The position numbers and the translations under genes were made by a program. Below, piece by piece: positions 2,743 through 42,560 of a DNA stretch of 64,000 bases (the stretch's first letter is position 1; each line of letters starts with the position of its first letter). Below the pieces are notes generated by a model. It saw only the letters and a list, made by a program, of their open reading frames with translations. It searched no databases and was not told the DNA's origin. Source of the DNA: a virus; the IMG/VR virus record IMGVR_UViG_3300049460_000121, positions 62,001-126,000 of that record; one strand, 5' to 3'.

Positions 2743-3291
2743 TTAGGAGGGTAACGTATTGCCGTTCTTGTTGCCCCGTTTGCTGCCTTTCGGTTGCTGC
2801 TGCTTATTAGCAGCCATCTCCTCCAGGTTCTTACGCATCTTGGCTGCTTCTTCTTCCTCTGCCTTACGGACCTTCCTGCCATCTTCCAGGAGCTTGTCCA
2901 GGAACCAGCGGGGGAATTGCAACAGATCCATGAGTGAGGTATTCGTCAGCTCTGGGAGGCGGCACGCCACCAACTCTAAAGTCATCAACTCAAGCCGACT
3001 ACCCGTGATCGCGTTTTCAGCTGGATGCATCCCGATGATCGATAACGGATCGTCGAGCATGTGCGCATCGTGGTCGAAGATGCCGTAGTACTGATCGTAC
3101 GTCTCCATCATCGACAACTGAGCCGTCCAGTCATCCTTACCCTGCCACGACAAGAGGTTTTCCATAATCGGACTACCGTTGGCGTACGGGAACTTCTTGC
3201 GACCAAAGCCTAGCAGCGAGACGTGATGGTATTCACGCTTGCCTTCGAGGGTTACCCGCCAGCACGCTTGATTTTGTGGTGGATTAGGGTA
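2743..3291 (-). CDS. Downstream part of a -1 frameshift fusion (182 codons; internal ATG at 3165 would give 140 aa)
   Basis: Read in its own frame, an ATG at 3165 would give a 140-residue protein, but that ATG has no convincing ribosome site. The frame is open without a stop back to 3291, the last T of the T8 run in the upstream gene. A -1 slip there joins the two frames into a product of about 796 residues. The segment contains a helix-rich stretch resembling the end of tail assembly chaperone extensions (FPRWFLDKLLE) and a lysine/glutamate/glutamine-rich coiled-coil-like tail. I infer that this is normally made as a frameshift extension. The alternatives are independent initiation at 3165 or a sequencing error in the homopolymer. 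Confidence 0.6.
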   Translation of the reverse strand, partial: YPNPPQNQACWRVTLEGKREYHHVSLLGFGRKKFPYANGSPIMENLLSWQGKDDWTAQLSMMETYDQYYGIFDHDAHMLDDPLSIIGMHPAENAITGSRLELMTLELVACRLPELTNTSLMDLLQFPRWFLDKLLEDGRKVRKAEEEEAAKMRKNLEEMAANKQQQPKGSKRGNKNGNTLPS

Positions 3292-5132
3292 AAAAAAACT
3301 TCGATTGGGTTGATGCTTACCAGGTGAGGGTGCTTCGACAGCGAGTCACCGGTGAGAGGAACACCGCACGAAGGGCAGGCAGACTTTGGAACCGCTACAG
3401 TGGCGAGGGTCATCGCGTTGATGAACTTCTCGATAGCTTCGGCAATCTTGGCTGTCAGCTCACCATCGTCCGCGAAGGATTCCAGCAGACGGTCCAGGTC
3501 CTGGTCCGCTTTGTACTGGAGTTCGAGGTCGTTGGCTTCGTCACCTTGCAGAACACGAGTCAGCTCGGTCACCAGACCATTTTCTGCGTTCTCGTCCACT
3601 TTAACAACCGCTTCGATCCAGTGGCTGTAGGCCATGACCATCGCGATGTTGTTGGCACGCAGCAGGTAGGTCTGACGGTCAGCCTCGTTCGCGTAGCTGG
3701 TCATCAGCACACGGGCGCGGTTGTCCATCTCGTCCATCCACGCAGTCGCCTGACGCTCGTAGTCAGCCAGCGTAGGAACACGCATCTTGACTTTGAGGGT
3801 TGGGCTGATGTCGATGTAACGGCTGACTTCAGGACGAATGCTCTCCTGATAGGCCTTGACCGTCTTGATGTCGACACGGGCAGAACGTTTGGCCATCAAC
3901 GCGAACTGGTTCTCGTCGATGCGGCTACGACGCACGAACAACATACGACGCAGGTTGACCTTACGGGTCAACGTTTCACCACAGCCGCCGTGAGTGGTCA
4001 AGCACGGACGGTCGAGGTTGTAGCCATCCGGGAAGATGGTCGCAGCCGCGGCCAGCGTCAGAGGCTCGAGGTCGGTCAAGAGGATGACCTTCTTCAACTC
4101 TTCCACATTGGTGGTGCCGATGGTGGACTTGGTCACGAAACCCAGGATGAAGTCAGCCACAGCTTTGTTCAGGTACACGGACGAAGCTGAGTAAACCAGA
4201 CCGTTGCTGTCACGCGCCATTTCGATCTTCTCATCCAGCAGCTGAGTTTCCAGGCGCAGTTGACTGAGGACCGGAGGACCTTCGAGGGTCAGGTGCATGC
4301 CGGAGTGCCAGAGCACAGCGTTGCCTTCAGTTGCCAGACCCAGTTGGCCACGAATCCGCATCACGGGGTCGTTGCTCTTCGCCGGGTTGTTGGCAGTGAT
4401 GGCGATCTTCTGGTCACCGTTGGTCGGCAGGTTGTTCCAGGTGTCTTCCTCGAAGATCTTGAAGCCGAAACCAACACGCAGCGACTTGGTGTACGAAGTC
4501 ACGTTGTTGATGGCATCGAGTTCTTCAGGGGTGAGGAACACGGTCTTCTGGTCCATGTCGATCCCGGTGAACGGGTGACGTTGGCCGGACTTGACGATGG
4601 CGTAACGGCTTTTCTGCGCTGCGAAGACGCGGCCGTAGACACCACGACGAATCACTTCCAGCTCATTCGCTTCGAAGTTCGACAGCGCGAGCGAGCCGAG
4701 TTTGGCGATGATGGTGTCTTCGAGGACTGGCAGAGTCTCTTCACAGTTCAGACGATTGATCAGTTCACCTGCCCAAGGTGCTGGAGCCACGGGAGCTGCA
4801 TCATCCGCTGGTTCCTCAGCTGCCTGTGCTTGCGCTTCAACCGACGCATCGGCGAGTGCTGGACTGGGAGCTGCGATGACGTTGGTGTTGAGATCTGCGT
4901 CTGTGCTGACAGAAGCGAAGCTCTCAGGTTCTACATCGCCAGCCGGCCATTCATGTCCGTCTTTCGGGAATTCGTTCAGCAGGCCCGAAGGTTGGAGTTC
5001 AACCTCGCCAACCTCTGTGAAGTCGCTTGGACGCGTGGGCTCTTTGGGGAGGTTTTCCCATGCGACGTGTTGTCCTTCAACGTTGCCGACGGTGACGGGC
5101 TCGTCGGCATTGCTCCCTTGATCATCGCTCAT
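3252..5132 (-). CDS. Large tail-assembly or structural protein with C-terminal zinc ribbon, 626 aa
   Basis: The start ATG overlaps the stop of the upstream gene (ATGA), with AAGAGAAAAG ahead of it. The first 130 residues are acidic, proline/alanine-rich and probably disordered. The body is folded-looking and contains a cysteine pair (CLTTHGGCGE). Near the end there is a zinc-ribbon-like CPSCG followed by a hydrophobic segment that runs into VFF at the T8 run. Without slippage, translation stops 12 codons later. A -1 slip continues into 2743-3291. A short and a long product from a slippery site is the arrangement of phage tail assembly chaperones (lambda G/GT, P2 E/E'), although those proteins are far smaller. 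The function is therefore inferred from architecture only. Confidence 0.65.
   Translation of the reverse strand: MSDDQGSNADEPVTVGNVEGQHVAWENLPKEPTRPSDFTEVGEVELQPSGLLNEFPKDGHEWPAGDVEPESFASVSTDADLNTNVIAAPSPALADASVEAQAQAAEEPADDAAPVAPAPWAGELINRLNCEETLPVLEDTIIAKLGSLALSNFEANELEVIRRGVYGRVFAAQKSRYAIVKSGQRHPFTGIDMDQKTVFLTPEELDAINNVTSYTKSLRVGFGFKIFEEDTWNNLPTNGDQKIAITANNPAKSNDPVMRIRGQLGLATEGNAVLWHSGMHLTLEGPPVLSQLRLETQLLDEKIEMARDSNGLVYSASSVYLNKAVADFILGFVTKSTIGTTNVEELKKVILLTDLEPLTLAAAATIFPDGYNLDRPCLTTHGGCGETLTRKVNLRRMLFVRRSRIDENQFALMAKRSARVDIKTVKAYQESIRPEVSRYIDISPTLKVKMRVPTLADYERQATAWMDEMDNRARVLMTSYANEADRQTYLLRANNIAMVMAYSHWIEAVVKVDENAENGLVTELTRVLQGDEANDLELQYKADQDLDRLLESFADDGELTAKIAEAIEKFINAMTLATVAVPKSACPSCGVPLTGDSLSKHPHLVSINPIEVFFTLIHHKIKRAGG
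3291..3298 (-). promoter_or_regulatory. Probable programmed -1 ribosomal frameshift site (T8)
   Basis: On the minus strand the sequence is GTTTTTTTTACC. The zero-frame codons GTT TTT TTT ACC contain the classical slippery heptamer T TTT TTT. After a -1 slip the next codon is TAC and the frame stays open for 182 codons to the stop at 2743. Both frames were translated by eye across the junction. No pseudoknot was evaluated. Confidence 0.6.
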
Positions 5133-6222: not shown

Positions 6223-7119
6223 ATGACCGACGTCAATAACGACATTGAAACGGACGATGCGTCCCAGGAATTGCTGGCTGCATTGACCTTCGGTCAGTGT
6301 GCTCCTGAATTGGCTTCGAGCTACAGTCGCCTGGCGACCATCCTCAACGATGTTGACTTCACAGGTCATATTGATGAGCTCGAGCTGCTGTACACGCTGG
6401 TCAATGACCACAACATCGACACCACCGAAGTGGTTACATCTATCGATGCGATCTTCCGTGTGGCGGTCGAACGTTGCTTGCAGTCGGTCGGTGTAGCGCT
6501 GGACGCTGACACGCCGTTGGCGATGGTTGAAGATGCACTCAGTACATTGTTGCTGTTTGATCCGACTGATGCTCCGGCAGTATTCACGGGGATCGCCGAC
6601 GCGTCTGAGGACAGCACTGAGGCCTTACTATCAATTCTCGCTTATGTAGGTAATTACAGTGAAGAGGACTGGTTCCCGTACATCGTTGAAGTTAGCGAGA
6701 ACACGATTCGTCGCATCCGTGAAATCTCTGCCAAAGAAGATAGCCGCATACAGTCCCAAGCGGATCTTATCGACTCTGATGAGCTGAACCAGCGTGTAGC
6801 GCGTATGGCGGCTCTTCGTCCTGATAGCCTGGGCGTTGAGTTGGCTCGTGACAATGTCGGCGTAGGTGCGTCCCTGGAGAGCCTGTACGGCTGTCATGTG
6901 GAACGTTTGATCGACTTGTCCACTGAACAGGCTGTGGTTGAGTTGTTTTCCCTCGCAGCCATCTCTAATGAGAGTTACGACAAGCTGGATCAGTCCATCT
7001 CTGCCGCTCTCGATGACCTCTGTTTCGAAATGGATGATCGTCGTAAGGCAGAACAGGTGCGCCTGAACATGATGAAGTCGTACCGTCCAATCTTCGGTAT
7101 CGAAAATGAAAAGATTTGA
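6223..7119 (+). CDS. Unknown acidic protein, 298 aa
   Basis: The start has a strong GGAG site seven bases upstream. The product is strikingly acidic and leucine-rich, likely all-alpha, with no membrane segment or enzymatic motif. Its last 14 bases overlap the start of the RNA polymerase piece at 7106, which suggests translational coupling and perhaps a partner or assembly role for that subunit. That link is inference. Confidence 0.7.
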   Translation: MTDVNNDIETDDASQELLAALTFGQCAPELASSYSRLATILNDVDFTGHIDELELLYTLVNDHNIDTTEVVTSIDAIFRVAVERCLQSVGVALDADTPLAMVEDALSTLLLFDPTDAPAVFTGIADASEDSTEALLSILAYVGNYSEEDWFPYIVEVSENTIRRIREISAKEDSRIQSQADLIDSDELNQRVARMAALRPDSLGVELARDNVGVGASLESLYGCHVERLIDLSTEQAVVELFSLAAISNESYDKLDQSISAALDDLCFEMDDRRKAEQVRLNMMKSYRPIFGIENEKI

Positions 7120-8401
7120 TTACTTTACCGGTGCGTTGCGGGCTAAGGCTCACTACCAGCGGGAATGGGTATTGCGGGCTATGTCGGTGGTACTCACCCC
7201 TCCAAAGGGCAATAACCCGTGGGGGTTGCGACAAACCAAGGAAGGGGCTGAAGTCTACATCCCTAACCTTGGTCAAGAGGGTGAGTGGCACTGGGAAGCT
7301 CTGGAGGGCGTAGGTCCTTACGAGATCCCCTTCGTCTACCACGATTGGGCTGGTCCTCTGAAACCAGGTGACGTCGAGAACGTGGTCGAGAACATCGACA
7401 ACGCGACCTGGGGTGACATCCTCTTCAACAGTCGGGTGTTGGTCTACTCCTGCGGTGATTTGATTCCTTTCGTCTTGGGTCCTGTTAACCTCGGCAGTAT
7501 CGAGGAACGGATCGTCAAGAAGATGGCGGACAACCCGAAGAAGGGTGAGGAACCTAAGCCTGGCCAGATGTACGTCTTCAACTACATGCGCTTCGGTAAG
7601 GCTGTAGGTGACCTGGCAGGTTACGAACTGTTCGTTCCCTCGGTGACTGAGCGGGCCTTGCAGCCTCCTCCTAACCGTACCGAGCTGCGCGACAGCCTGC
7701 TCGAGCAATACAAAGGCCAGCTGGAAGATCCGGTCGTACAGACCAAGATCCAGACGGCCATGGTGGACTCTTATAAGGACTGGATCAAAGGCGATCCGTC
7801 TGAAGGCTTCATCTACAAGAACAAATCGATCAACACCGCTCTCAAGCGGATGTTCCTTATCCACGGTCCAGAAGCTGGATTCGAGGAGGGTGGTCGAGCT
7901 ACGTTGGTGATCAATTCCCTTGAAGAGGGCATCGACGTTACTCACTACCCAACCATGGTGAACTCACTCCGTGCTGGTTCCTACTACCGGGGTGCGTTGA
8001 CTGCATTGGCGGGTGAAGACGTTGACTTGATGGCTCGTGTATTCCAGAACGTCCGGATTCTCCCGGATTTCTGCAACACTCACGAGACCTACGACGTCAA
8101 GATCACCAAGGACTACGTCGGCCGGACGCTGAGCATGAATCGTCAGCGTGTCAAGGTGACCGATGAGAACTTGACTGAGTTCAATGGCAAGATCATGCCG
8201 ATGTACTCCTCAGCTTACTGCAAAGCAACTCGCAGTGACGTCTGCGCCATCTGTGCCGGCGATAAGCTGGCAGCCTTCCCTGAATCGATGGGTTCGATGG
8301 TTGGCGACATCCCTTCTACTATGATGCTGACAATGATGGGATCCGCCCACGCCAAAGAGCTGAAGACCACTCCCATCGATATCGAAAACTTCTTGAGGTA
8401 A
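7106..8401 (+). CDS. RNA polymerase beta-prime C-terminal piece, virion-type polymerase candidate
   Basis: Residues 272-326 (EEGIDVTHYPTMVNSLRAG through CNTHETY) align by eye with the bacterial beta-prime segment that runs from the REGL...STHGARKG region to the CGTHEG cysteine. Residues 368-420 carry YCKATRSDVCAICAGDKLA and MLTMMGSAHA, matching the SCDTDFGVCAHCYGRDLA and QLTMRTFH region. C323, C372, C380 and C383 could bind the second zinc. A separate second copy of this region exists at 13790-15757, so the phage encodes two multisubunit polymerases, as phiKZ does. By memory of phiKZ this would be the gp80-like subunit of the packaged polymerase. The start overlaps the upstream gene. Confidence 0.75.
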   Translation: MKRFDYFTGALRAKAHYQREWVLRAMSVVLTPPKGNNPWGLRQTKEGAEVYIPNLGQEGEWHWEALEGVGPYEIPFVYHDWAGPLKPGDVENVVENIDNATWGDILFNSRVLVYSCGDLIPFVLGPVNLGSIEERIVKKMADNPKKGEEPKPGQMYVFNYMRFGKAVGDLAGYELFVPSVTERALQPPPNRTELRDSLLEQYKGQLEDPVVQTKIQTAMVDSYKDWIKGDPSEGFIYKNKSINTALKRMFLIHGPEAGFEEGGRATLVINSLEEGIDVTHYPTMVNSLRAGSYYRGALTALAGEDVDLMARVFQNVRILPDFCNTHETYDVKITKDYVGRTLSMNRQRVKVTDENLTEFNGKIMPMYSSAYCKATRSDVCAICAGDKLAAFPESMGSMVGDIPSTMMLTMMGSAHAKELKTTPIDIENFLR

Positions 8402-30163: not shown

Positions 30164-32149
30164 TTAGTAGTAGTTGCCACCGCTGTACGGACGGCGACGG
30201 CGATCAGCGCTGTCGTCGGAACGATTGCGGCGAGTACGACCGATTTCGCTGGTTGCGTACTGGCTGTAGCCATCGTGACCGATCGAGCGACGAGTCGACA
30301 GACCATCGTTGGACGAAACGTGCGGAGACATCTTCGCACCATCCAGCGAGTCTTGCAGAGCGATCAGGTAGTCCAGGTCGAAGGCCAGTTGCTCGGCAGT
30401 GCCGGTAACGTGCAGACCAGGAACCACTTTACGCAGGATCGCGTAACGCTCAGCCAGGTTGAACTCGATCGAACGACGGGTGTCTTCGAAAGTAGCCTGG
30501 AAGTCCTGTACCAGGTCCAGGTTCTTCTCGCCAACACGAGTCAGCAACGCAGGGACGTTCCATTCACGGATGTCACGGCGGTTCTGGTTCTCGTCCAACC
30601 AGGTGCCCAGCAGGGTGCGGCTACCGGTAGTGTAGACCGGACGGTAGTCGTTACCCAGGTTACGCTTGGCCAACGCATCGCTGAAGCGATTGCCGGTCAG
30701 AACGTCTGCCGAAGCATGCAGCAGGTCGATCAAGTCGTCCAGCTCGGTGCCAGGCTCTGCGATCGCGATGCGCTCGTAGATGCTCAGTACCCAGGACTTC
30801 TCGCCCGAGGATGGAACGGTCATGCCGAACGCGACGTCAGGCTTGACGGTCAGGTCGAGGTAATCGGCCAGATCGTTGTCGCTGATGTTCGGACCGATGT
30901 CCTTGGCTACGCAGGCAGCTTCTTCGTCCGGGTTCATCAGGAACAGATGGCCCAGGGAAGTCAGAGGCTTGAGACCTTCGGCCAGAGTGGCGCGAGGACG
31001 CAGCATGGTTGCCCAGCGGTAGTCGTTGGACTGTTGCACTGCCTGAGCGATCAGGAGTTGTGCCAGTTCCAGCGAGTACGGGAAGTCGCCCGAGCCAACA
31101 GAGTTGATGTTCAACACTGCTTGCCAGAACGGGCTCTCGGTATCACGACCACGACGGCGACGGCCGCCGAAACGACGCTGTTCGCTTTCGCCCTTCTCGT
31201 CGTAGGAGACGAACATGTCCAGGCCGCAGCGGATGTCGCCCATTTTGGTACGGGAGAACAGGTTGTCTTCGCCGTTCGGCTCGGAGTAGTACAGGTTGGT
31301 GGTCACGTCGCTACGAACAGGCAGACCCGAAGTGTCGATGATCTGCTTGCCGGTGTAGTCGAACGCGATTTCCAGACGGGAGCCTTTACCCATCTTGTCC
31401 GGGCTAACGCGGAACTGCGAGGAACGAGTGCCCGACTTGGCGTCGATCATGTTCTCGCGGAAGCCGCAGATGGCCTCCATCGCGTTATCGTAGATGTGAG
31501 CAACGATCTGCTCCATCTCTTTCTCGGTACGGTGGGTGAAGGTGTCAGCCAGGATAACCTGATTGCCAACCACACGGGCAGTACCGCCAACGGCCGCTTG
31601 AGCCTGATCACGCACGATGTTGATGTACGTTTCGGTCAGGTGATCTTCTGGCAGAACCAGAGCGTCGAAGGTTTCGCCACGCTCAACCAGCGGACGGGTT
31701 TGCACGTCGCCGCTTTGCTCGATCAGCAGGATGTAGGTCAGGGCGTAACGCTCGGCACCGATGGTGGCCGGCAGAACAACCAACAGGCTGGATTGCGAAG
31801 AACGCGCCAGCGAGCCATCCATCGGGATGACCTTGAACAGGTTACGCTTGGTTTCAGCAGGAACGCCAGGCTTGTCGTAAGTCTTGGCGTTCTCGAAGGT
31901 ATTAACCAGCAGAGACAGAACCGCATCGCTCAGGCCGCCCATGGATGGACGAGCTTGGAGGCGGGACATGTCAGCGAAGGTCACCTGAGTTTCGCGGTTT
32001 TCATCGCGACGGCTGCCACGGCTGCCACGGTCGCTGTCGCGGGAATCACGCTCGTCACGGCTACGATCTTCACGCAGTTCGGAACGGGTGTCTTCGCGAC
32101 GCGGCTCTTTAGCATTGTCCGGGGCGTCGGTTACAAAAGTATCGCTCAT
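30164..32149 (-). CDS. Candidate phage nucleus shell protein (chimallin/ChmA, phiKZ gp54 position), 661 aa
   Basis: GGAGATGCAAC precedes the ATG. It lies directly upstream of the beta-prime N-terminal subunit, as phiKZ gp54 (nuclear shell) lies next to gp55, and it has the right size class. Codon use is highly biased, fitting an abundant protein. Residues about 17-52 form an R/D/S-rich segment, an R-rich loop lies near 325-340 (RRFGGRRRRGRD), and the last 35 residues are again Arg/Asp-rich. The central part is a folded alpha/beta body. No alignment to a known shell protein was possible, so the name is by synteny. A major virion or RNA-binding protein is the alternative. Confidence 0.5.
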   Translation of the reverse strand: MSDTFVTDAPDNAKEPRREDTRSELREDRSRDERDSRDSDRGSRGSRRDENRETQVTFADMSRLQARPSMGGLSDAVLSLLVNTFENAKTYDKPGVPAETKRNLFKVIPMDGSLARSSQSSLLVVLPATIGAERYALTYILLIEQSGDVQTRPLVERGETFDALVLPEDHLTETYINIVRDQAQAAVGGTARVVGNQVILADTFTHRTEKEMEQIVAHIYDNAMEAICGFRENMIDAKSGTRSSQFRVSPDKMGKGSRLEIAFDYTGKQIIDTSGLPVRSDVTTNLYYSEPNGEDNLFSRTKMGDIRCGLDMFVSYDEKGESEQRRFGGRRRRGRDTESPFWQAVLNINSVGSGDFPYSLELAQLLIAQAVQQSNDYRWATMLRPRATLAEGLKPLTSLGHLFLMNPDEEAACVAKDIGPNISDNDLADYLDLTVKPDVAFGMTVPSSGEKSWVLSIYERIAIAEPGTELDDLIDLLHASADVLTGNRFSDALAKRNLGNDYRPVYTTGSRTLLGTWLDENQNRRDIREWNVPALLTRVGEKNLDLVQDFQATFEDTRRSIEFNLAERYAILRKVVPGLHVTGTAEQLAFDLDYLIALQDSLDGAKMSPHVSSNDGLSTRRSIGHDGYSQYATSEIGRTRRNRSDDSADRRRRPYSGGNYY

Positions 32150-34178: not shown

Positions 34179-34965
34179 CCGGATTCACCGTGTAGACATG
34201 TGTCAAATACGGGGAGGGGAAACTCTCCCCTTTATGCCGCACCTCTTTCATCGCTTCGTCCAGAGACTTGGTTACCCCAGTATTGGCGTCGGTGACCGTA
34301 GCCCCTACAGACTCCCAATTCACCGGGAGTAACTCCTCGATCGGGATACCGCACTGGTGCTCAGGGAATGAAGTCGCTCCCCGTCCACGGTACTGCGCCA
34401 ATGGCCGATCCTTCATCCGCACCCCATGCTTCGCGATATCCAGGAACGACGGGAATTCAGGTACGGGATGGTTGATGCCAAACGACAGCGGGTCCGGATT
34501 AGATTCCCAGGTACCAAGGAAATCCTTTACCGGGTTTTCCCTGGCTTCCTCGATCTTCTTTTTGATCCAATCGTTGTCGTAGAAGTAACAGTAGTATTTG
34601 GCGCCGCCGTACTCTCGCACTTCTCGACGGAAGTACTTACGCTGGTCCGGCTGGGGTTCAGACTGCGGCAACACCACCATTGGGATCCGCTCAGCGGCAC
34701 TACGCCTGGCAAAGGCACCCGGTGTACACTCGCACGGGATAACCTTCTTACGCAGACCCTCAACGACCTTGTAGTCCTTCACGACGCAGAAGGATTCGAG
34801 CTCACCCAACTCCCTGAGCTCAGCAGCACCACAACGACACTTGAAGAAATCGGAAGAAATCTTCTGATTCAGGCCAACCAGGTAGCGACCCGCTGGGGTC
34901 GCCTCCAGTTTGCTCAGTGCCAGCATGTAGTCCGTATAACTCTTATCGTCATCCATTCCACTCAT
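34171..34965 (-). CDS. Unknown cysteine-containing protein, 264 aa
   Basis: It starts with ATGA overlap on the DNA polymerase stop. Residues 44-46 (CRC) and a later CEC at about 79-81 with further cysteines may form a zinc site. A Tyr/Lys-rich central region and a C-terminal half with Pro/Asn follow. No family recognised. Tight coupling between DNA polymerase and the RuvC-like gene suggests a replication accessory protein. Confidence 0.65.
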   Translation of the reverse strand: MSGMDDDKSYTDYMLALSKLEATPAGRYLVGLNQKISSDFFKCRCGAAELRELGELESFCVVKDYKVVEGLRKKVIPCECTPGAFARRSAAERIPMVVLPQSEPQPDQRKYFRREVREYGGAKYYCYFYDNDWIKKKIEEARENPVKDFLGTWESNPDPLSFGINHPVPEFPSFLDIAKHGVRMKDRPLAQYRGRGATSFPEHQCGIPIEELLPVNWESVGATVTDANTGVTKSLDEAMKEVRHKGESFPSPYLTHVYTVNPDE

Positions 34966-37082
34966 GGTTCAAGCCCCAAGAAGTCGTACACCAGACGGAG
35001 GTTGTTGCGATCCACAATGAACAGGCCCATGGATTCCAGGATCCGGTAGAAACCGGAGTTGATCTGGTAGGCGAGTTTACGGATGTTGGCCGCTTGCTGG
35101 ATCTCAACAGGTAGACCGCACTGACGAATCGCCTGAGTAGGCAACAGGATAGTGCTCAGGTCCTTACGGTTGTACTTGGTACACCACAGCGCCATGCGCT
35201 CAGCGAACTCACGATCTTCCAAGTCTGCCAGCCATGCCTTGAGGGCCGTCTGGTTTTGAAGGTCGAGGGACAGCTTAACGCAAGCATACGGAGGCTCAGT
35301 CATCTTGCCGTACTTCGGACCGAACACATCCTGCCACAGTTCATGGTAAGGCATCTTCTTGCTGTCGGGTTTGATGTTGTCCGACTTCAAGAAGGTGTAC
35401 TCACCGCGCAGGATAGACCGCACGCATTCCAACTCTGAGTTGGCCACCAGCTTCAATACTTCACCGGCGTTGAGCTTTCTGCCTTCGTTCACCGCATGGA
35501 GGGTGTCATGCATCAAGTCGGCAGTGGCTTTCAGGATGTGCTTCTGCGAAGTCGAACCACGCAGCTCCACGCCCTTGGTTTCCATCTCCAGCTCTTTATA
35601 GACGTTACCTTCACGCATGGACATGGTCGAGTAGTAGTGCTTCGCCAGATTCGTCAAAGCGAACTGAGGGAAGGCGAACTCGTTCTTCATCGCCAGACGG
35701 AAGGTCTGAGACTTCTCCACGCCAATGTTGGTGGACAGCTTGGCCAACGAGTGGGCAATGCACTGGCAGACCATGTAAGTGGCCAGGTACCAGATACGAT
35801 CCTGTTCCTCACCACGGCGCAGGTTACCCGAGTACCATTCAACCCAACCTTCACAGGTAAAGATGGAGGAGTCGGTATCCGCCGCCAAACATACCCGGCG
35901 CTGAATGGATTTCAACGAGGCCACAGTTGGTGGGAGGTGGGAGGTAGCAAAGAACATGGTGATGAAGTCAGCGTAGTGATTCAGACCTTGCTGGACTTTC
36001 CACGCCACCTTACCGATCGTTTGCCAACCCGCTGGGTCGTTTGCCTTTACTCGGGCATACGTAGAACCACGCAGGACGGTCGCACACAGGGCGTTCACGT
36101 ACGCCAGGTCAGTCGGGTCCATGTCTTTGATTACGTCGTCTGTAACAACGTCTGGGACGTCGCTGATGTCGATCGCGATAAGGGTGGTCAACATGTCACG
36201 AATGACTTTGTCGTTGTACTGGGCCAAGTGGAACATGTCGCCGGAGTAGCAGAAGATTGCCCGTTCCAGTTCAGTCATGCCTTCTACGGCCGAACGGATG
36301 ATGGCGTCTTCGGTGGTGTCGCTCCAGTACAGGTCAGTCGACCGGGAGATCATCTTGCAGACCTGATCCACGGTTGGGTAGACGATCCCGTACTTCTCGA
36401 TAATGTCAGCGAACTGAGCCCGACGCTCGATGGTGCACACTGCTACGATGTTCGCCTTGGCGATCTCTGGCGAGTGGTAGTGACGGGAACCAGCCAGGAA
36501 GCGTTCTACCGTAGCGTTACCGTAACCTGCCGCTGCGCGGCACAGGGATGTCAGGCTGGAGTGACCAGTGGCGATGAACAGAGGGTTACCCTCAAAGCCA
36601 CGCATACCGGACACGGAGTTGATACGGATCTTACGGGCGTTCTGGTCATAGTCGGCCAGTTGGCTGCCCAGGATGTCGCCTTCTTGCTTCAAGACGAACA
36701 TGCGCTTCTTGGAACGCTTACGAGCGGCGATGTTGTCGTCCTGCCATTCGGCGGTTACGGACTTCTCAACTTCCGGACGCTCGTAGATCACCATGGACGG
36801 GGACAGAATCCGGTTGGTGTCGATGACTTCGTTTACATAGCCCAGAAAGGTGGTCTCTTCCGCTTCACGGTGACCCGGCCCTTTACGTACCAGTTGGAGC
36901 ATCTGTGGATCTTGAAATTCAAACTTACCGCCGCGGCGGGTCTCTTTCTTAACGTATTCGAGACACTCGGCCAAAGGCTTCTTTAATTGCAAGGAGATGT
37001 ACTTGGCGGTTTGCTCGATGTAGCCCTGACGAATATCCAGGTTACGGTTATAATCGTCGAGGGGAAGAAGAAATGGGTTCAT
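34962..37082 (-). CDS. Family B DNA polymerase, C-terminal part (motifs B and C)
   Basis: Residues 147-165 (QNARKIRINSVSGMRGF) match motif B (KxxxNSxxG). CLAADTDSSIF at 398-408 is motif C with the DTDS catalytic aspartates. KHYYSTM...KGVELRGS about 90 residues on matches the KKRY/KGxE region that binds template-primer. About 240 residues separate B from C, far more than usual. Motif A (DxxxLYPS) and the 3'-5' exonuclease are absent, so they must be on a separate chain outside the window or the polymerase is split. GGAGC precedes the ATG. It replicates the phage genome, presumably inside the nucleus. Confidence 0.8.
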   Translation of the reverse strand: MNPFLLPLDDYNRNLDIRQGYIEQTAKYISLQLKKPLAECLEYVKKETRRGGKFEFQDPQMLQLVRKGPGHREAEETTFLGYVNEVIDTNRILSPSMVIYERPEVEKSVTAEWQDDNIAARKRSKKRMFVLKQEGDILGSQLADYDQNARKIRINSVSGMRGFEGNPLFIATGHSSLTSLCRAAAGYGNATVERFLAGSRHYHSPEIAKANIVAVCTIERRAQFADIIEKYGIVYPTVDQVCKMISRSTDLYWSDTTEDAIIRSAVEGMTELERAIFCYSGDMFHLAQYNDKVIRDMLTTLIAIDISDVPDVVTDDVIKDMDPTDLAYVNALCATVLRGSTYARVKANDPAGWQTIGKVAWKVQQGLNHYADFITMFFATSHLPPTVASLKSIQRRVCLAADTDSSIFTCEGWVEWYSGNLRRGEEQDRIWYLATYMVCQCIAHSLAKLSTNIGVEKSQTFRLAMKNEFAFPQFALTNLAKHYYSTMSMREGNVYKELEMETKGVELRGSTSQKHILKATADLMHDTLHAVNEGRKLNAGEVLKLVANSELECVRSILRGEYTFLKSDNIKPDSKKMPYHELWQDVFGPKYGKMTEPPYACVKLSLDLQNQTALKAWLADLEDREFAERMALWCTKYNRKDLSTILLPTQAIRQCGLPVEIQQAANIRKLAYQINSGFYRILESMGLFIVDRNNLRLVYDFLGLEP

Positions 37083-37126: not shown

Positions 37127-37173
37127 AGTAAAAAAAGAAAGAGCATAAACCCACCCGCGGTTAGGCGGGTGGG
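37127..37173 (-). terminator. Terminator of the small-gene array
   Basis: CCCACCCGC pairs with GCGGGTGGG (37150-37158 with 37165-37173). The adjacent AAAAAAAGAAAGAG tract supplies a U-run on the minus strand. It separates the array at 37181-41043 from the DNA polymerase operon. Confidence 0.85.
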
Positions 37174-37180
37174 CTATATG

Positions 37181-37573
37181 TCACAATGTCTCGATCGTGA
37201 AGTCTTCGATACCGTGCGCAATCATCATCGATCGCAGGGACGCCAGGGTGTTGTCGTCCGAGTTGCGGAGGGTGATGAGACGCACTGGATTCGCGTTCTC
37301 CGTGATGGAGGCAGGTTTTACCCACGGGATACCCATGTACAGGGTCTCGTTGTTAGCATTGATCAGCTTGGCGTAGCTGTAGCCCGTGTAGGAGTCCGGA
37401 ACACCTGGTGGGAGGTACGGATAGTTCTGCATGTGTTTCGCGGCAGCATCGAAGCCCAGGGCGACTACAGTCCCAGCGTCGAGGATACCGACAAAGCGGA
37501 GGTTCTTGTGACGAACACCTTCGTAAGTGTCGAAGGTTAACGTCTTATTGAGTGCATCGGAATTCAACTGCAT
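37181..37573 (-). CDS. Unknown protein, 130 aa
   Basis: GGAGACACC precedes the ATG, which lies inside the end of the previous gene. The product is beta-rich with a proline/tyrosine-rich middle (NYPYLPPGVPDSYTGYSY). It is the last gene of the minus-strand small-gene array, but I do not see the array's C-terminal repeat motif in it. Function unknown. Confidence 0.65.
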   Translation of the reverse strand: MQLNSDALNKTLTFDTYEGVRHKNLRFVGILDAGTVVALGFDAAAKHMQNYPYLPPGVPDSYTGYSYAKLINANNETLYMGIPWVKPASITENANPVRLITLRNSDDNTLASLRSMMIAHGIEDFTIETL

Positions 37574-37904
37574 TGAAAGGTGTCTCCATTAACAGGGCGC
37601 TGAAGTAGCCGTGTTCGACCATCTCGAGTTTACTCACCAGTCCTACGGACAGGAATTCGAGCAGCTCGTCATGATCGATGTTGTCCCAGAGGGGATCCAG
37701 GTCAATACCCAGGCTGTCAAGGTAACCTTCACCTTGGACCAAAGATTCCAGGACAAAGTCCCAGCACTCCTTGAACGCTACTGACTTCTGGGAGAGTCTC
37801 CGCGGAACCTCCCCAAGAACAGGGTCATTCCGCACGCAGTCCCAGACCAGCGTGGTTAACATCGATCCTAGTTTTGGGGAATGTCCCAGTATGTAGTAGC
37901 TCAT
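37545..37904 (-). CDS. Unknown acidic protein, 119 aa
   Basis: It is a helical and acidic (Asp/Glu/Leu) protein with no clear ribosome site near the ATG. It overlaps the next gene by 29 bases. It belongs to the tightly packed minus-strand array but does not obviously share its paralogous motif. Function unknown. Confidence 0.6.
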   Translation of the reverse strand: MSYYILGHSPKLGSMLTTLVWDCVRNDPVLGEVPRRLSQKSVAFKECWDFVLESLVQGEGYLDSLGIDLDPLWDNIDHDELLEFLSVGLVSKLEMVEHGYFSALLMETPFNAVEFRCTQ

Positions 37905-37925: not shown

Positions 37926-38303
37926 TCAGATACAGGCCACCAGTACTCTGGCATGAATTTGACGTGAATCGGAAATGGTTAATCGCACAAGATGGACGGC
38001 AGCAGCGCTTAGCCCGACATTCCTGAAGATACTCTCGAGCGCAGGGTAGTACTCATCCAATAAGTAGTCAGCTGCGATCTCGGCAGCGCCGATTGATTTG
38101 AAAACCTCATCACTCCGCAGTTCCCGAGCGAGTTTCTCGCGGTTAGCACCATTGGACATCCGCCGTCCCCAGACGGCTTGTTTCTGGATGATGAGGTCGG
38201 GACGATAGTTCAACTCGTCTAACCTGCCATCTAGATACCGAATGAGTGCTCGGGTCGGCTGAGTGACATCGACTATCTGAAAGTCAACATCACCAGTGGC
38301 CAA
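37926..38303 (-). CDS. Small array protein, 125 aa, TTG start
   Basis: The frame is open to an ATG at 38402, but that part is antisense to nothing and lies inside the upstream gene. GAGGTGG is placed five bases before a TTG at 38303, which is the better start. The C-terminal 30 residues (AVHLVRLTISDSRQIHARVLVA) follow the same strand-turn-strand pattern as the ends of the neighbouring genes, so I place it as a distant member of the paralogous array. Function unknown. Confidence 0.55.
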   Translation of the reverse strand: MATGDVDFQIVDVTQPTRALIRYLDGRLDELNYRPDLIIQKQAVWGRRMSNGANREKLARELRSDEVFKSIGAAEIAADYLLDEYYPALESIFRNVGLSAAAVHLVRLTISDSRQIHARVLVACI

Positions 38304-38673
38304 TTTTCCACCTCGTATCAATGGACAGTAAAAGGAATGGCCCCGCTCTCTTGAACTTGGCCGCCTGGAGTGTGTAAATCGAGCCAAGTGAGTAGACGCC
38401 ATATAAATGATCGGCTAGGACGCGGTACAGCTTCTGGGCTTGGGAGTAGGGTCCGATCTGGCAGTGCAGTTTCTCCCGAGGGATGTACGGCAAGAACAGA
38501 CCCAACTCATAGCCCTTCTCGGCTGCCTTATCGCCCATTTGCTCCACATCTTCATGGACCAGGTCCGCCAACTGCTTCAGCGTGCGCTGAATGTCCTGAA
38601 GGGACACGAAGTCCCTGAGCAGGAGGTCGTGGATCAGGACAAGCTCACGGGTGGTTCTTGTTAGCTCTGTCAT
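38290..38673 (-). CDS. Small array protein, 127 aa
   Basis: The ATG lies inside the upstream gene, with GGAG about ten bases before it. The first 75 residues are helical and the rest includes SIYTLQAAKFKRAGPFLLLSI, which lines up with RFTVVDAKFIYDKPLLEVEY of the gene at 39704-40246. It is a likely diverged paralogue. Function unknown. Confidence 0.6.
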   Translation of the reverse strand: MTELTRTTRELVLIHDLLLRDFVSLQDIQRTLKQLADLVHEDVEQMGDKAAEKGYELGLFLPYIPREKLHCQIGPYSQAQKLYRVLADHLYGVYSLGSIYTLQAAKFKRAGPFLLLSIDTRWKIGHW

Positions 38674-38983
38674 TCCAGGCGATCTCCACGAACGCTGACC
38701 GGTGGACTACCTCAACGTCGACATTCGACAGAGGATGCGTCACGTTCAAGACTGAGCTGAAGATCTTGGTGTTGTACAGGATCGTCAGTAGTCGGTTGAT
38801 GTACAACTCCACATCGTGCAGTGTCACCTGATGTTCCCGGCTGATACTCCCCAATACCTCACGGTCGAGACCCATGTTGGCTTCTGCCGTCATGGTTATT
38901 ACTTCACGGACGATTCGCTCAGCTGCGTCTTTATCCATGACTGGGAAATCGGGCAGCTCGAGCACATAACGTTCTACTTGCAT
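38645..38983 (-). CDS. Small array protein, 112 aa
   Basis: GAGGTAAGC precedes the ATG. The protein has a helical centre and ends in LSNVDVEVVHRSAFVEIAW, matching MRVNNVEIKNRSVLLEFTY of 39385-39672 at equal spacing from an upstream helix (AAERIVREVI versus ADVILKAFI). I read these as tandem paralogues. It overlaps the next gene by 29 bases. Confidence 0.65.
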   Translation of the reverse strand: MQVERYVLELPDFPVMDKDAAERIVREVITMTAEANMGLDREVLGSISREHQVTLHDVELYINRLLTILYNTKIFSSVLNVTHPLSNVDVEVVHRSAFVEIAWNDRANKNHP

Positions 38984-38990
38984 GCTTACC

Positions 38991-39395
38991 TCAGCTTATA
39001 AGGAAATGTCTCCCTGACCGACTGGACTTGACGTGGAGCAAACCCTCCTCGCAATAGCCGCAATCGCGTGGAAGTACATCGTGGATCATGTTCTTGAGAT
39101 CTTCGTCGTGGATATACCGACGCTTGAACACATAGAACGTTGCATGAAAGTCGGACCAGAACCTGGCATAACCTTCATGGTGGGGGTCTTTGTAACACAC
39201 GCTCAATCGCTCGAAGGCGCGCATCACCTCGTCTTCAGGTGCCACCAGGCCAAACAGCATAATGGACAACAGAAGACAAGGCAGTTCGCCATAGTTCGGG
39301 TAATCGCCCTGTTCCTCCAGAGCAGCGAGCGCTCCGGCAAGATCAGGTTCCAACGTCAGGACGAATCCTGGATATAGGTCTACGCTAGGTGGCAT
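38991..39395 (-). CDS. Unknown small array protein with CxxC, 134 aa
   Basis: The ATG at 39395 with GAGGAATTCG ahead, overlapping the upstream stop by 11 bases, is preferred over 39452. The protein is helical, with a RDCGYCEEG element near the C-terminus that may bind metal together with histidines around it. It is interleaved with the paralogous array but its own end does not clearly match the motif. Function unknown. Confidence 0.6.
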   Translation of the reverse strand: MPPSVDLYPGFVLTLEPDLAGALAALEEQGDYPNYGELPCLLLSIMLFGLVAPEDEVMRAFERLSVCYKDPHHEGYARFWSDFHATFYVFKRRYIHDEDLKNMIHDVLPRDCGYCEEGLLHVKSSRSGRHFLIS

Positions 39396-39672
39396 CGACG
39401 AATTCCTCGTAAGTAAACTCGAGGAGTACCGACCGGTTTTTGATTTCGACATTATTCACCCTCATTGGGGCAAACTTCTTCACCACGTCGAAGACGCCTA
39501 GAAAGCGCTTCTCAAAGATGGAGAACCAAACATCTACCGCCATGGTCGCTCTCCCTATATCTTCGGGCGGAATAAACTCATCCGTCAGACGTTCTAGGAA
39601 GAACTCATCATCGTAGTAAACGTAGTGGATAAATGCCTTGAGGATAACATCGGCCTCAGCGCACAAATCCAT
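39385..39672 (-). CDS. Small array protein, about 95 aa (start uncertain)
   Basis: The frame runs back to 39924, but that portion lies inside the upstream gene. The first ATG after that gene's stop is 39672, with only a distant GGAG, so a non-ATG start nearer 39704 is possible. It shows an N-terminal helix (EADVILKAFIHYV), an acidic middle, and the ending VNNVEIKNRSVLLEFTYEEF, the clearest form of the array's shared strand motif. Function unknown. Confidence 0.55.
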   Translation of the reverse strand: MDLCAEADVILKAFIHYVYYDDEFFLERLTDEFIPPEDIGRATMAVDVWFSIFEKRFLGVFDVVKKFAPMRVNNVEIKNRSVLLEFTYEEFVDAT

Positions 39673-39703
39673 CTCGAGCGATTCAAACTCCAGGTCCTCC
39701 AGG

Positions 39704-40246
39704 TTAACGATGGCGTGGCGATACTCGGCTTGGCCTTGATACGGTGGAACGATGGTCCAGCTCTCGTTGGAACTGCTCCAGTGCCTTCTCGACCTCAGGG
39801 TGGATGAGTTCTCCCGCTTGCCGTCTGTGTCGGATAAATCGACTGAACGTTTGCGGCTCCTCCTTAGGTACTGTTTCATGATACTCGACTTCCAATAACG
39901 GCTTGTCGTAGATGAACTTCGCATCTACTACGGTGAAGCGCCGCATGTCACTCAGGGTCTTGTCTTTATAAACAAAGTCCTCAAACTCAATCAGGACGTT
40001 GATCATATCCCTGCGGTCGACACGGTGGGGCCGTAGGTCTTCCAGGATGTCCAAGATGGTACTCCCCTCTCCGCTAAAACAACGGATAAAGGTTTCAATC
40101 AGGATGTCCTCGGTCGCCTTTTGGATCTTGAACAGGTCCATGTTAGACTTATTCAAGACATGCCGGAGTTGGTCGATAAAGTCACTACAGCCTATGCGGC
40201 AGTATCGAACCACTCTAGTTTGCTCTGATGCCGTACTCGTGTCCAT
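39704..40246 (-). CDS. Small array protein with basic tail, 180 aa
   Basis: The ATG at 40246 (GAGAGACC upstream) is preferred; the frame above it lies inside the previous gene. Residues about 40-120 contain the shared pattern: helix TEDILIETFI, then RRFTVVDAKFIYDKPLLEVEYHE. Unlike its neighbours it has an extra 60-residue tail rich in Arg, His and Gln. It is a likely paralogue of 38645, 39385 and 40215. Function unknown. Confidence 0.6.
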   Translation of the reverse strand: MDTSTASEQTRVVRYCRIGCSDFIDQLRHVLNKSNMDLFKIQKATEDILIETFIRCFSGEGSTILDILEDLRPHRVDRRDMINVLIEFEDFVYKDKTLSDMRRFTVVDAKFIYDKPLLEVEYHETVPKEEPQTFSRFIRHRRQAGELIHPEVEKALEQFQRELDHRSTVSRPSRVSPRHR

Positions 40247-40736
40247 GGTCTCTCGTCCACTCTTCGATCCGATAATCCTCACCCACTTCCACGCAGATAC
40301 TGTTTCGTATCCGGCTGATGTGAACGATCCTCCAAGTAGGCAGGTCAATGTGGTCCAGGATGAAAACAGACAACTTATCGGACATATCGGTCAGTATCTC
40401 GTTAACCTTCGGGATCTTCTCCAACAGGTAATGGAACTCGTTGATCAGGTCGTTGGTTCTTGCATGCTGGACCTGATACCGCTGGACCCGCTTTCTTTTG
40501 GACCCATACCGCTCATAACCCATCAGGTCACGGACTTCCGAGGAGGCACGCTTTGGACGTGCCCAGAGAAGTTGCTCAGTGATAAAGTCATCGACCATTT
40601 TGTAGATTAGGTCGGATGCATCGTTTTGCAGCTGGCGGCTCCCTTTCTCCTCGTACCGTAAGGCACGCTGATAGATTTGATTGGCAAATTCGCTAATGTC
40701 TAGGACGAATGAGCCTGTAGCATGTTCTAACGTCAC
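40215..40736 (-). CDS. Small array protein, 173 aa, GTG start
   Basis: TTG at 40748 and GTG at 40736 are possible starts; GGAG seven bases before the GTG favours it. There is a long Arg/Lys-rich insertion in the middle (YGSKRKRVQRY) between the two conserved parts. The C-terminal half has NDLINEFHYLL and then WRIVHISRIRNSICVEVGEDY, matching the array motif. Function unknown. Confidence 0.6.
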   Translation of the reverse strand: MTLEHATGSFVLDISEFANQIYQRALRYEEKGSRQLQNDASDLIYKMVDDFITEQLLWARPKRASSEVRDLMGYERYGSKRKRVQRYQVQHARTNDLINEFHYLLEKIPKVNEILTDMSDKLSVFILDHIDLPTWRIVHISRIRNSICVEVGEDYRIEEWTRDHGHEYGIRAN

Positions 40737-41043
40737 GGAAATCTCCAATGATCAAGGTATTTCTGTTGACCAAAAACCAGAGTTCTTCATCGCAAAGTCG
40801 CTCTCCAACGCTACGGGGTAGATACGTAATTGCGTCCAATCCAAACCGACGCACTGCCGCATCCAACTTTCGAACATCGTGACTGACTGATTGACCCTTT
40901 TGCGGAGTCATCGGAGAACAAGGAATGCCGTAAGAGTGGGTGTACTCTTTGACCAACCAATCCTCGATAACTCCAGCATGAATTTCGCGTTCGGGATCAA
41001 TCAACCTGACGAGTTCGGATATGTCAGTGATGATGTAAGCCAT
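40693..41043 (-). CDS. Small protein at the head of the array, 116 aa
   Basis: GGGGGAT before the ATG at 41043 fixes the start (an ATG at 41061 is less well placed). The protein is alpha/beta, starting MAYIITDISELVRLI. It is the first gene of the overlapping chain 41043-37181 and overlaps the second by 44 bases. I cannot firmly align it with the others. Function unknown. Confidence 0.6.
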   Translation of the reverse strand: MAYIITDISELVRLIDPEREIHAGVIEDWLVKEYTHSYGIPCSPMTPQKGQSVSHDVRKLDAAVRRFGLDAITYLPRSVGERLCDEELWFLVNRNTLIIGDFRDVRTCYRLIRPRH

Positions 41044-41187: not shown

Positions 41188-41409
41188 TTACGAGAAGGAG
41201 GGATCGCCGAGGTCCTCGAAGGATGGGTCATCCTTGTTCAGCAACCCGCGGTGTTTCAGAGGATCGTAGGTCTCCTGAGGGAAAGCGCCGTGCCACGATT
41301 GACCGCGGCAGCAGGCGCACTTGAAACCGTCACCGTTGGACGGAGTCAGTTGAAGGGAGTCGATGGTGTTGCAGCACACGCAAACAAACATGGATCCGCC
41401 GTAAGACAT
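41188..41409 (-). CDS. Small zinc-ribbon protein, 73 aa
   Basis: AAAGGAATACG precedes the ATG at 41409; the longer frame to 41526 runs into the terminator and tubulin gene and is rejected. CVCC at about 10-13 and CACC at about 33-36 form a four-cysteine zinc ribbon. The C-terminal half is acidic and disordered-looking. It lies just downstream of the tubulin gene after a hairpin. Its role is unknown; nucleic-acid or protein binding is possible. Confidence 0.65.
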   Translation of the reverse strand: MSYGGSMFVCVCCNTIDSLQLTPSNGDGFKCACCRGQSWHGAFPQETYDPLKHRGLLNKDDPSFEDLGDPSFS

Positions 41410-41479: not shown

Positions 41480-42496
41480 TCACTCGAAGACCAGACCGGT
41501 AGCGTGGGTGACGGTTTTGGCGTCACTCAGCTTGGTGGTGGCTTGCTGGTTTTGCTTCTGCAAGGCAACAGTGCTCTTCAGGGTGTTCAGGCGATCGAAC
41601 AGGCCGGACAGGTTGTCCACCGAGACGGTGTAGAAGAAGTTGTTCTTGCTGTTGGCATCGGCCGGCAGGTAGCCAGTCTTGTCGTAGTCGGCGTCGATCT
41701 GAGGACCAACCTGATCTTCGCCGGTCAGCAGCGAGATGTACGCGATCGGACGGGCCGAGGCTTTCTGGATGTCTTCAGTCTTGGTGAACACGTCCAGCAT
41801 GGCCAGACCTGGCTTGTTGTGGCTGACCAGGTGGAAGTCGAACATGTTCTGGATGTCGGCGCTGTCCAGAGCTTTGTTACGGCCAGAGGCCAACATGCCC
41901 AGCGAGCCCAGGACGAACTTCGGCACCAGGTTGTTGTCGATGATCGATTTGGTTGGACTGTTTTCGGCGTAGAACATAACGATCGGACGACCAACGCGTG
42001 CAACGGCTTGTTCCAGACCAGTCAGAGTGCCGATGGTGTTGGTGGTACGCTTCAGGGTTTCGTGGGAACCGATGATGATCGCCACCGCCATCTTGCCCTG
42101 TTTCAGCAGTTCTTCCAGGATCAGAGGACCTGCAACGGAACCCGAACCACCGGATGCCGAGAACAGAACCACGTTGAAGTCCTTCGGTTCGTGCGCCAGC
42201 AGGATTTGTGGCAGGACGCCCATGATCGCTTCGGCGTTCTTCGGGCGGTTGGAACCGGAACCATCCAGACCCTTCAGGGTGAAGGTGTGTTTGGACGGGA
42301 CGTTGTGCAGGTTGGCGAACGAGGTGTCGATGTACGCGAAGTGCTCGCTGGCATTTTGCTCGTCAGCAGTCAGGACCAGATCTTCACGATGGCTGCGCAA
42401 CAGGTTTATACCGGTCCCACCACAACTGTAAAACATAATGCTGCGAGTTTTCGGTTTGATCAAGTCGGCGTTGATTTGCTCGTTTACTGCGTTCAT
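41480..42496 (-). CDS. phuZ: Tubulin/FtsZ-like cytoskeletal protein (PhuZ-type)
   Basis: ATG at 42496 with GGAGC upstream. The fold signature is visible: CGGTG at residues 25-29 in the first nucleotide loop, and SASGGSGS at 113-120 as the tubulin signature (GGGTGSG-like). An Asn/Asp-rich segment near 220-230 would be the T7 region. At 338 residues it fits phage tubulins, which form triple-stranded filaments that centre the phage nucleus and carry capsids. The signature differs from the canonical GGTGSG by Thr to Ser, a divergent form. Codon use is strongly biased, so expression is probably high. Confidence 0.85.
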   Translation of the reverse strand: MNAVNEQINADLIKPKTRSIMFYSCGGTGINLLRSHREDLVLTADEQNASEHFAYIDTSFANLHNVPSKHTFTLKGLDGSGSNRPKNAEAIMGVLPQILLAHEPKDFNVVLFSASGGSGSVAGPLILEELLKQGKMAVAIIIGSHETLKRTTNTIGTLTGLEQAVARVGRPIVMFYAENSPTKSIIDNNLVPKFVLGSLGMLASGRNKALDSADIQNMFDFHLVSHNKPGLAMLDVFTKTEDIQKASARPIAYISLLTGEDQVGPQIDADYDKTGYLPADANSKNNFFYTVSVDNLSGLFDRLNTLKSTVALQKQNQQATTKLSDAKTVTHATGLVFE

Positions 42497-42560
42497 GTAA
42501 AGCTCCACTATTTAATTGGCGGGATCTGATATGAAGATCCCAGGAAAAGAGGTTATTGCA

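Follow-up and report, generated by a model that had tools for sequence, protein, structure and literature searches.

Nine small minus-strand genes, here called A to I (41043-37545), lie between the gene for the phage tubulin PhuZ and an SH3DP/DNA polymerase pair. Our analyses lead us to propose, with chances that we hold to be about even, that this array consists of tandem diverged paralogues encoding subunits or adaptors of a phage-internal machinery linked to the phage nucleus or to replication, a function that we infer. The window, by which we mean the whole stretch of 64,000 nucleotides that was analysed, corresponds to bases 62001-126000 of a 267,467-base IMG/VR virus record. Since it encodes PhuZ, a divergent DNA polymerase, chimallin and SH3DP alike, we assign it to a nucleus-forming jumbo phage (Chimalliviridae). 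The phage collection contains no near-identical DNA, the closest PhuZ relatives being those of two IMG/VR contigs (91-92% identity), and searches for Rfam families and tRNA returned none.

Genes of the array and their flanks

The array and its landmarks are arranged as follows, in the direction of transcription.

41480..42508, minus strand: PhuZ, the phage tubulin gene that borders the array upstream; tblastn matches in 186 phage records, of which many carry a PhuZ or tubulin-like annotation
41188..41409, minus strand: Z, a 73-aa zinc-ribbon-like protein encoded after PhuZ and ahead of the array; found by HMM in 49 loci, position constant
40693..41043, minus strand: A, first array gene, 116 aa; 17 loci (HMM), slot and order constant
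40215..40736, minus strand: B, 173 aa, GTG start; match to phrog_14023, orthologue of the N-terminal part of phiKZ gp43
39704..40246, minus strand: C, 180 aa; 17 loci, weak profile link to the gene cluster c13
39385..39744, minus strand: D, a 119-aa domain; 39 loci, AF2 model, Foldseek
38991..39395, minus strand: E, 134 aa; 18 loci
38645..38983, minus strand: F, 112 aa; 18 loci, C-terminal profile match to D
38290..38673, minus strand: G, 127 aa; 7 loci and a distant cluster, c10 (E 2.6e-5)
37926..38303, minus strand: H, 125 aa, TTG start, GAGG Shine-Dalgarno; 53 loci, AF2 model, Foldseek
37545..37904, minus strand: I, 119 aa; 21 loci
37181..37573, minus strand: J, the SH3DP gene, SH3-fold, associated with phage DNA polymerases; PF20287, E 1e-19
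37148..37175, minus strand: intrinsic-terminator-like hairpin closing the array; 11 pairs, 8 of them GC
34962..37082, minus strand: divergent family-B DNA polymerase, downstream border of the array; Pfam PF20286, E 1e-215
30164..32149, minus strand: chimallin (nuclear shell protein), context; Pfam PF25677, E 5.8e-7

The sequence-only reading had described an array of four, probably six, overlapping genes with odd starts. The genes are indeed there, each of them on the minus strand and listed in that reading by its 3' end, and the array is real; it is also longer, as A (41043-40693) and I (37904-37545) occupy the same interval, which in total holds nine small genes and the SH3DP gene. With gene starts taken as the best Shine-Dalgarno-supported ones, from which all overlaps were computed, the overlaps of 11-44 bases are found at A/B (44), B/C (32), D/E (11), F/G (29) and G/H (14) but not at E/F and H/I, where the genes do not overlap; the odd starts are GTG in B and TTG in H. 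Two genes of the interval are outside the array fold family, namely Z and J. The latter scores 70.8 bits to PF20287 (cut-off 25), is the orthologue of phiKZ gp49 and is the final gene ahead of the terminator; it is the sole gene to match SH3DP (PF20287), none of A-I doing so. Each genome carries one orthologue of each window gene type, and a search of the 267-kb record with sequence profiles revealed no further copy of D or H.

Neither Pfam nor PADLOC gave a convincing match for any of A-I. B is the sole array gene of the window with a domain match, to phrog_14023, a family of unknown function (hmmscan E 1.2e-7), and it aligns with the N-terminal part of phiKZ gp43 (hhalign E 1e-14). The phiKZ genes gp40-gp49 fill the same slot, running from PhuZ (gp39) to SH3DP (gp49) and the DNA polymerase (gp50), but this interval holds fewer genes than that of the window and its gp43 has twice the length of B. 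Apart from gp43, the phiKZ members, gp47 and gp48 profiles included, are not significantly linked by sequence to the genes of the window. As a side observation, the motif GEDYRIxEW directly follows the hairpin both in B (40215-40736, minus strand) and in phiKZ gp43 orthologues (L006:7342-8415, plus strand), and the gp43 relatives have a further C-terminal motif in common, NDYLPPxxRxxAER. An internal duplication of phiKZ gp43, which looked likely by eye, was rejected, as its halves did not align (hhalign E 0.25; one reversed control reached 0.0012).

Predicted folds and paralogy

Two of the nine members were modelled with AF2, H from 31 sequences (pLDDT 91.6, pTM 0.84) and D from 23 (pLDDT 88.5, pTM 0.81). 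With E for strand and H for helix, the elements are E8-12 H14-27 H35-40 H42-45 H52-64 H71-95 E101-110 E116-124 in gene H and E8-14 H21-27 H31-44 H48-55 H60-84 H87-90 E95-102 E105-111 in gene D. Both models thus run through a strand, helices, a 25-residue helix and a closing hairpin (E-H-H-H-H(25)-E-E), a likeness that refers to element order and common Foldseek targets and not to coordinate superposition. Against the BFVD viral models, 15 of the top 50 targets are common to D and H, and in these top-50 lists the matches of named source come mostly from chimalliviruses as we ourselves classified the matched phages (21/30 for H, 23/27 for D). The best E-values, 1.5e-4 with D and 4.8e-3 with H, are weak (TM about 0.4-0.6), and several of our structural claims depend on weak scores of this kind, which are consistent among themselves. 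Together, the element order and the common targets speak against the unrelated folds that the sequence-only reading had named as its own refutation, as far as the D-H pair is concerned.

Several of the matched proteins seem to belong to sister arrays, an assignment made by length and phage name and not by sequence: the PhiEaH1 matches have 123, 138, 142 and 132 residues, the lengths of the consecutive array genes gp30, gp29, gp28 and gp27, and those of Noxifer have 136, 118 and 167, the lengths of gp38, gp39 and gp41. A further match to D, the 109-aa A0A173GE89 of Erwinia phage RAY (L008), fits no RAY array gene, so that members of the fold outside the array are possible. Searches of the PDB by sequence or structure returned no convincing relative of D or H, which is not proof of a new fold. 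The overall arrangement of both models weakly resembles the ribosomal uL22 fold (VIA Z 2.7-3.2; H Foldseek E 0.33), with scores that chance can give in searches of this kind and that are no evidence of a relationship, and Chou-Fasman propensities for the nine families were too noisy for use. From the two models we infer that one fold may be common to the whole window array: a compact domain that would open with a strand at the N-terminus, continue through three or four short helices and one long one, and end in a hairpin at the C-terminus. This fold family appears to be undescribed.

At the level of sequence the signal is sparse within the window and clear in other genomes. Profile-profile comparison among the nine genes gave nothing significant except a weak C-terminal match between D and F (27 columns, E 0.0016). 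None of 600 reversed-profile controls fell below 0.003, and in later small reversed sets 0.0012 and 0.0027 were each reached once; E-values near 1e-3, that of D-F included, are for this reason untrustworthy alone. In related arrays, the neighbouring families c22 and c23, both present in FLC9-group genomes, align over 116 columns (E 1.4e-10), and the B-type family c0 and its neighbour c13, both present in LucasX and its relatives, align over 112 columns (E 2.8e-4); the latter is the cluster to which C is weakly linked. Tandem duplicates are found in Noxifer (gp37/gp38; blastp 5e-8, 134 columns) and in locus L103, where two gp48-like genes are adjacent (4.5e-13). A second, different tandem duplication was seen in locus L042, where adjacent genes (2101-2724 and 2761-3405, plus strand) encode similar proteins of 207 and 214 aa.

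The earlier description of the array as diverged paralogues of no described family thus draws its support from the D/H fold, from recent tandem duplicates in sister arrays and from the profile links between neighbouring families, while the sequence profiles within the window join only D and F, and weakly. Likewise, the C-terminal motif that it took to be shared is borne out in the AF2 models of D and H but not as significant sequence similarity, the weak D-F match excepted. One may then ask whether the likeness is convergent, that is, whether unrelated small neighbouring proteins have arrived at a common alpha+beta topology. Such a view would be in keeping with the weak Foldseek E-values and with the fact that most window members do not resemble one another significantly in sequence; we nevertheless disfavour it as very improbable, because the named viral matches are mainly chimalliviral, sister arrays hold adjacent duplicates that sequence can still detect, and neighbouring families align over their full length.

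Conservation, selection and possible roles

The layout PhuZ-array-SH3DP-polymerase recurs at 57 loci of diverse Chimalliviridae, which are all those with PhuZ and SH3DP both detected in this orientation. Across them the gap between these two genes ranges from 2.1 to 9.8 kb and is filled by small genes wherever it was inspected. The order Z-A-B-C-D-E-F-(G)-H-I-J is the same throughout the 14 nearest genomes (one is without a detected C); other orders are Z-D-H-J, in 16 genomes, and B-J, in 13. The interval holds three annotated small genes in EL, four in ACP1, six in OBP, eight in PhiEaH1, and nine plus Z in the window; as some chimalliviruses (EL, ACP1) retain only three to five, the phage family as a whole can do without most members. 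In terms of the Chimalliviridae core genome blocks (PMC10299810), the array falls in the region that has PhuZ, the DNA polymerase and chimallin; in the main text of that study the word "paralog" does not occur, and we came across no description of the fold family. Sequence methods would see most array genes as lineage-specific. No function for phiKZ 043-048 appears in the main text of PMC12571901, PMC10914614 or PMC10449902, and none for the PhiPA3 numbers searched in that of PMC10643120.

Compared with three close relatives, A-I have dN/dS values of 0.08-0.44, which mark the selection as purifying, and the flanking core genes have values of 0.17 (PhuZ), 0.07-0.16 (SH3DP) and 0.07-0.12 (polymerase); the array genes are under purifying selection, yet they diverge faster than the polymerase. 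Neither elevated dN/dS nor mosaic presence, the marks by which we had sought an arms race among close relatives, was found, and gene order is conserved. These values bear on the suggestion of the sequence-only reading that the genes are fast-changing anti-defence or host-takeover proteins engaged in an arms race with the host, which we now regard as improbable. Small diverged proteins whose number varies by lineage, as the gap of variable length attests, are what such a role would lead one to look for. It sits poorly, however, with dN/dS little above that of the flanking core genes (0.07-0.17), with collinear order in 14 genomes, with a slot among core genes that is fixed in 57/57 loci having both flanks, with the presence of the array in chimalliviruses of many hosts, and with the PADLOC defence families, which up to E 0.1 gave one chance-level hit. 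Because the position is fixed, the order conserved and the selection purifying, we consider the arms-race reading weaker than the one in which the genes encode subunits or adaptors. The same place and order across the phage family point to built-in phage machinery, not to throw-away anti-host weapons.

Two other roles inside the phage deserve consideration. That the genes encode DNA polymerase accessory subunits acting with SH3DP, for instance in place of a missing sliding clamp, would agree with the adjacency and common direction of array, SH3DP and polymerase in the inspected loci, and with the proposal of a published survey that SH3DP itself may be a polymerase subunit (PMC7824862); a strong terminator-like hairpin nonetheless lies between the polymerase gene and the block of array and SH3DP, no clamp-like fold occurs among the matches, and we think this role unlikely. 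A tentative case can be made for import into the phage nucleus. Phages of this kind encode the import factors Imp1/PicA and Imp3-Imp6, which act in cargo-dependent combinations of several factors, and according to a review import requires, beside Imp1/PicA, further ones (Imp4, Imp5, ChmC/Imp6) whose contribution varies with the cargo (PMC13282480). Both the D and the H model match PhiPA3 protein 044, which is annotated as similar to phiKZ gp047, but this match is weak (prob 0.33). Some of the extra import factors, we presume, map to phiKZ gp47/gp48, which lie inside the slot between PhuZ and SH3DP, and divergence between species would suit species-specific import. The gp47 and gp48 profiles, as noted, show no significant link to window genes, and import remains for us a possible role at rather low probability.

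The reading that we prefer, an array of subunits or adaptors, could work as follows. Each gene would supply one distinct subunit or adaptor of a machinery that serves either the phage nucleus or the replication apparatus, whose genes surround the array (PhuZ, SH3DP, DNA polymerase and chimallin); members might pair into a hetero-oligomer, or each might connect its own partner to a common machine, and duplication followed by divergence of the surface would have led to different specificities. It is tempting, if speculative, to go further and to suppose that an unrecognised fold, largely confined to phages that form a nucleus, was multiplied into tandem arrays of combinatorial phage-nucleus adaptors, so that genes counted as non-conserved by sequence would form one conserved family; we put this forward at rather low probability. 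Nucleus-forming phages have many genes to which no function has been assigned, and sequence searches made one gene at a time class the small ones as lineage-specific. If the block is one fold family, dozens of seemingly unrelated hypothetical proteins become a single question, and phiKZ gp43-gp48 would be named test cases for functions in the nucleus or in replication.

The start of gene D

No ATG, GTG or TTG lies close to the D domain. Those in-frame starts that do occur lie farther upstream and overlap C by at least 176 bases, the candidate ATGs being at 39879 or 39924. In the window's own clade the open frame of D begins 43-90 codons upstream, within C, and in the DT01-like clade D starts about 8 codons upstream, preceded by a GGAGGT-like site. 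Over the stretch where C and D overlap, dN/dS is about 0.9-1.1 in the D frame versus 0.2-0.4 in the C frame; as the former is near 1, the extension of D is without visible amino-acid constraint. The long D frame inside the 3' part of C (39879-39704, minus strand) stays open in the window's own clade. In the Pseudomonas phage pPa_SNUABM_DT01, the D orthologue (L007:6764-7327, plus strand; HMM E 1e-20) has a TTG start after AGAGGTGA; the record of this phage does not annotate it as such and annotates a different frame, 7020-7565.
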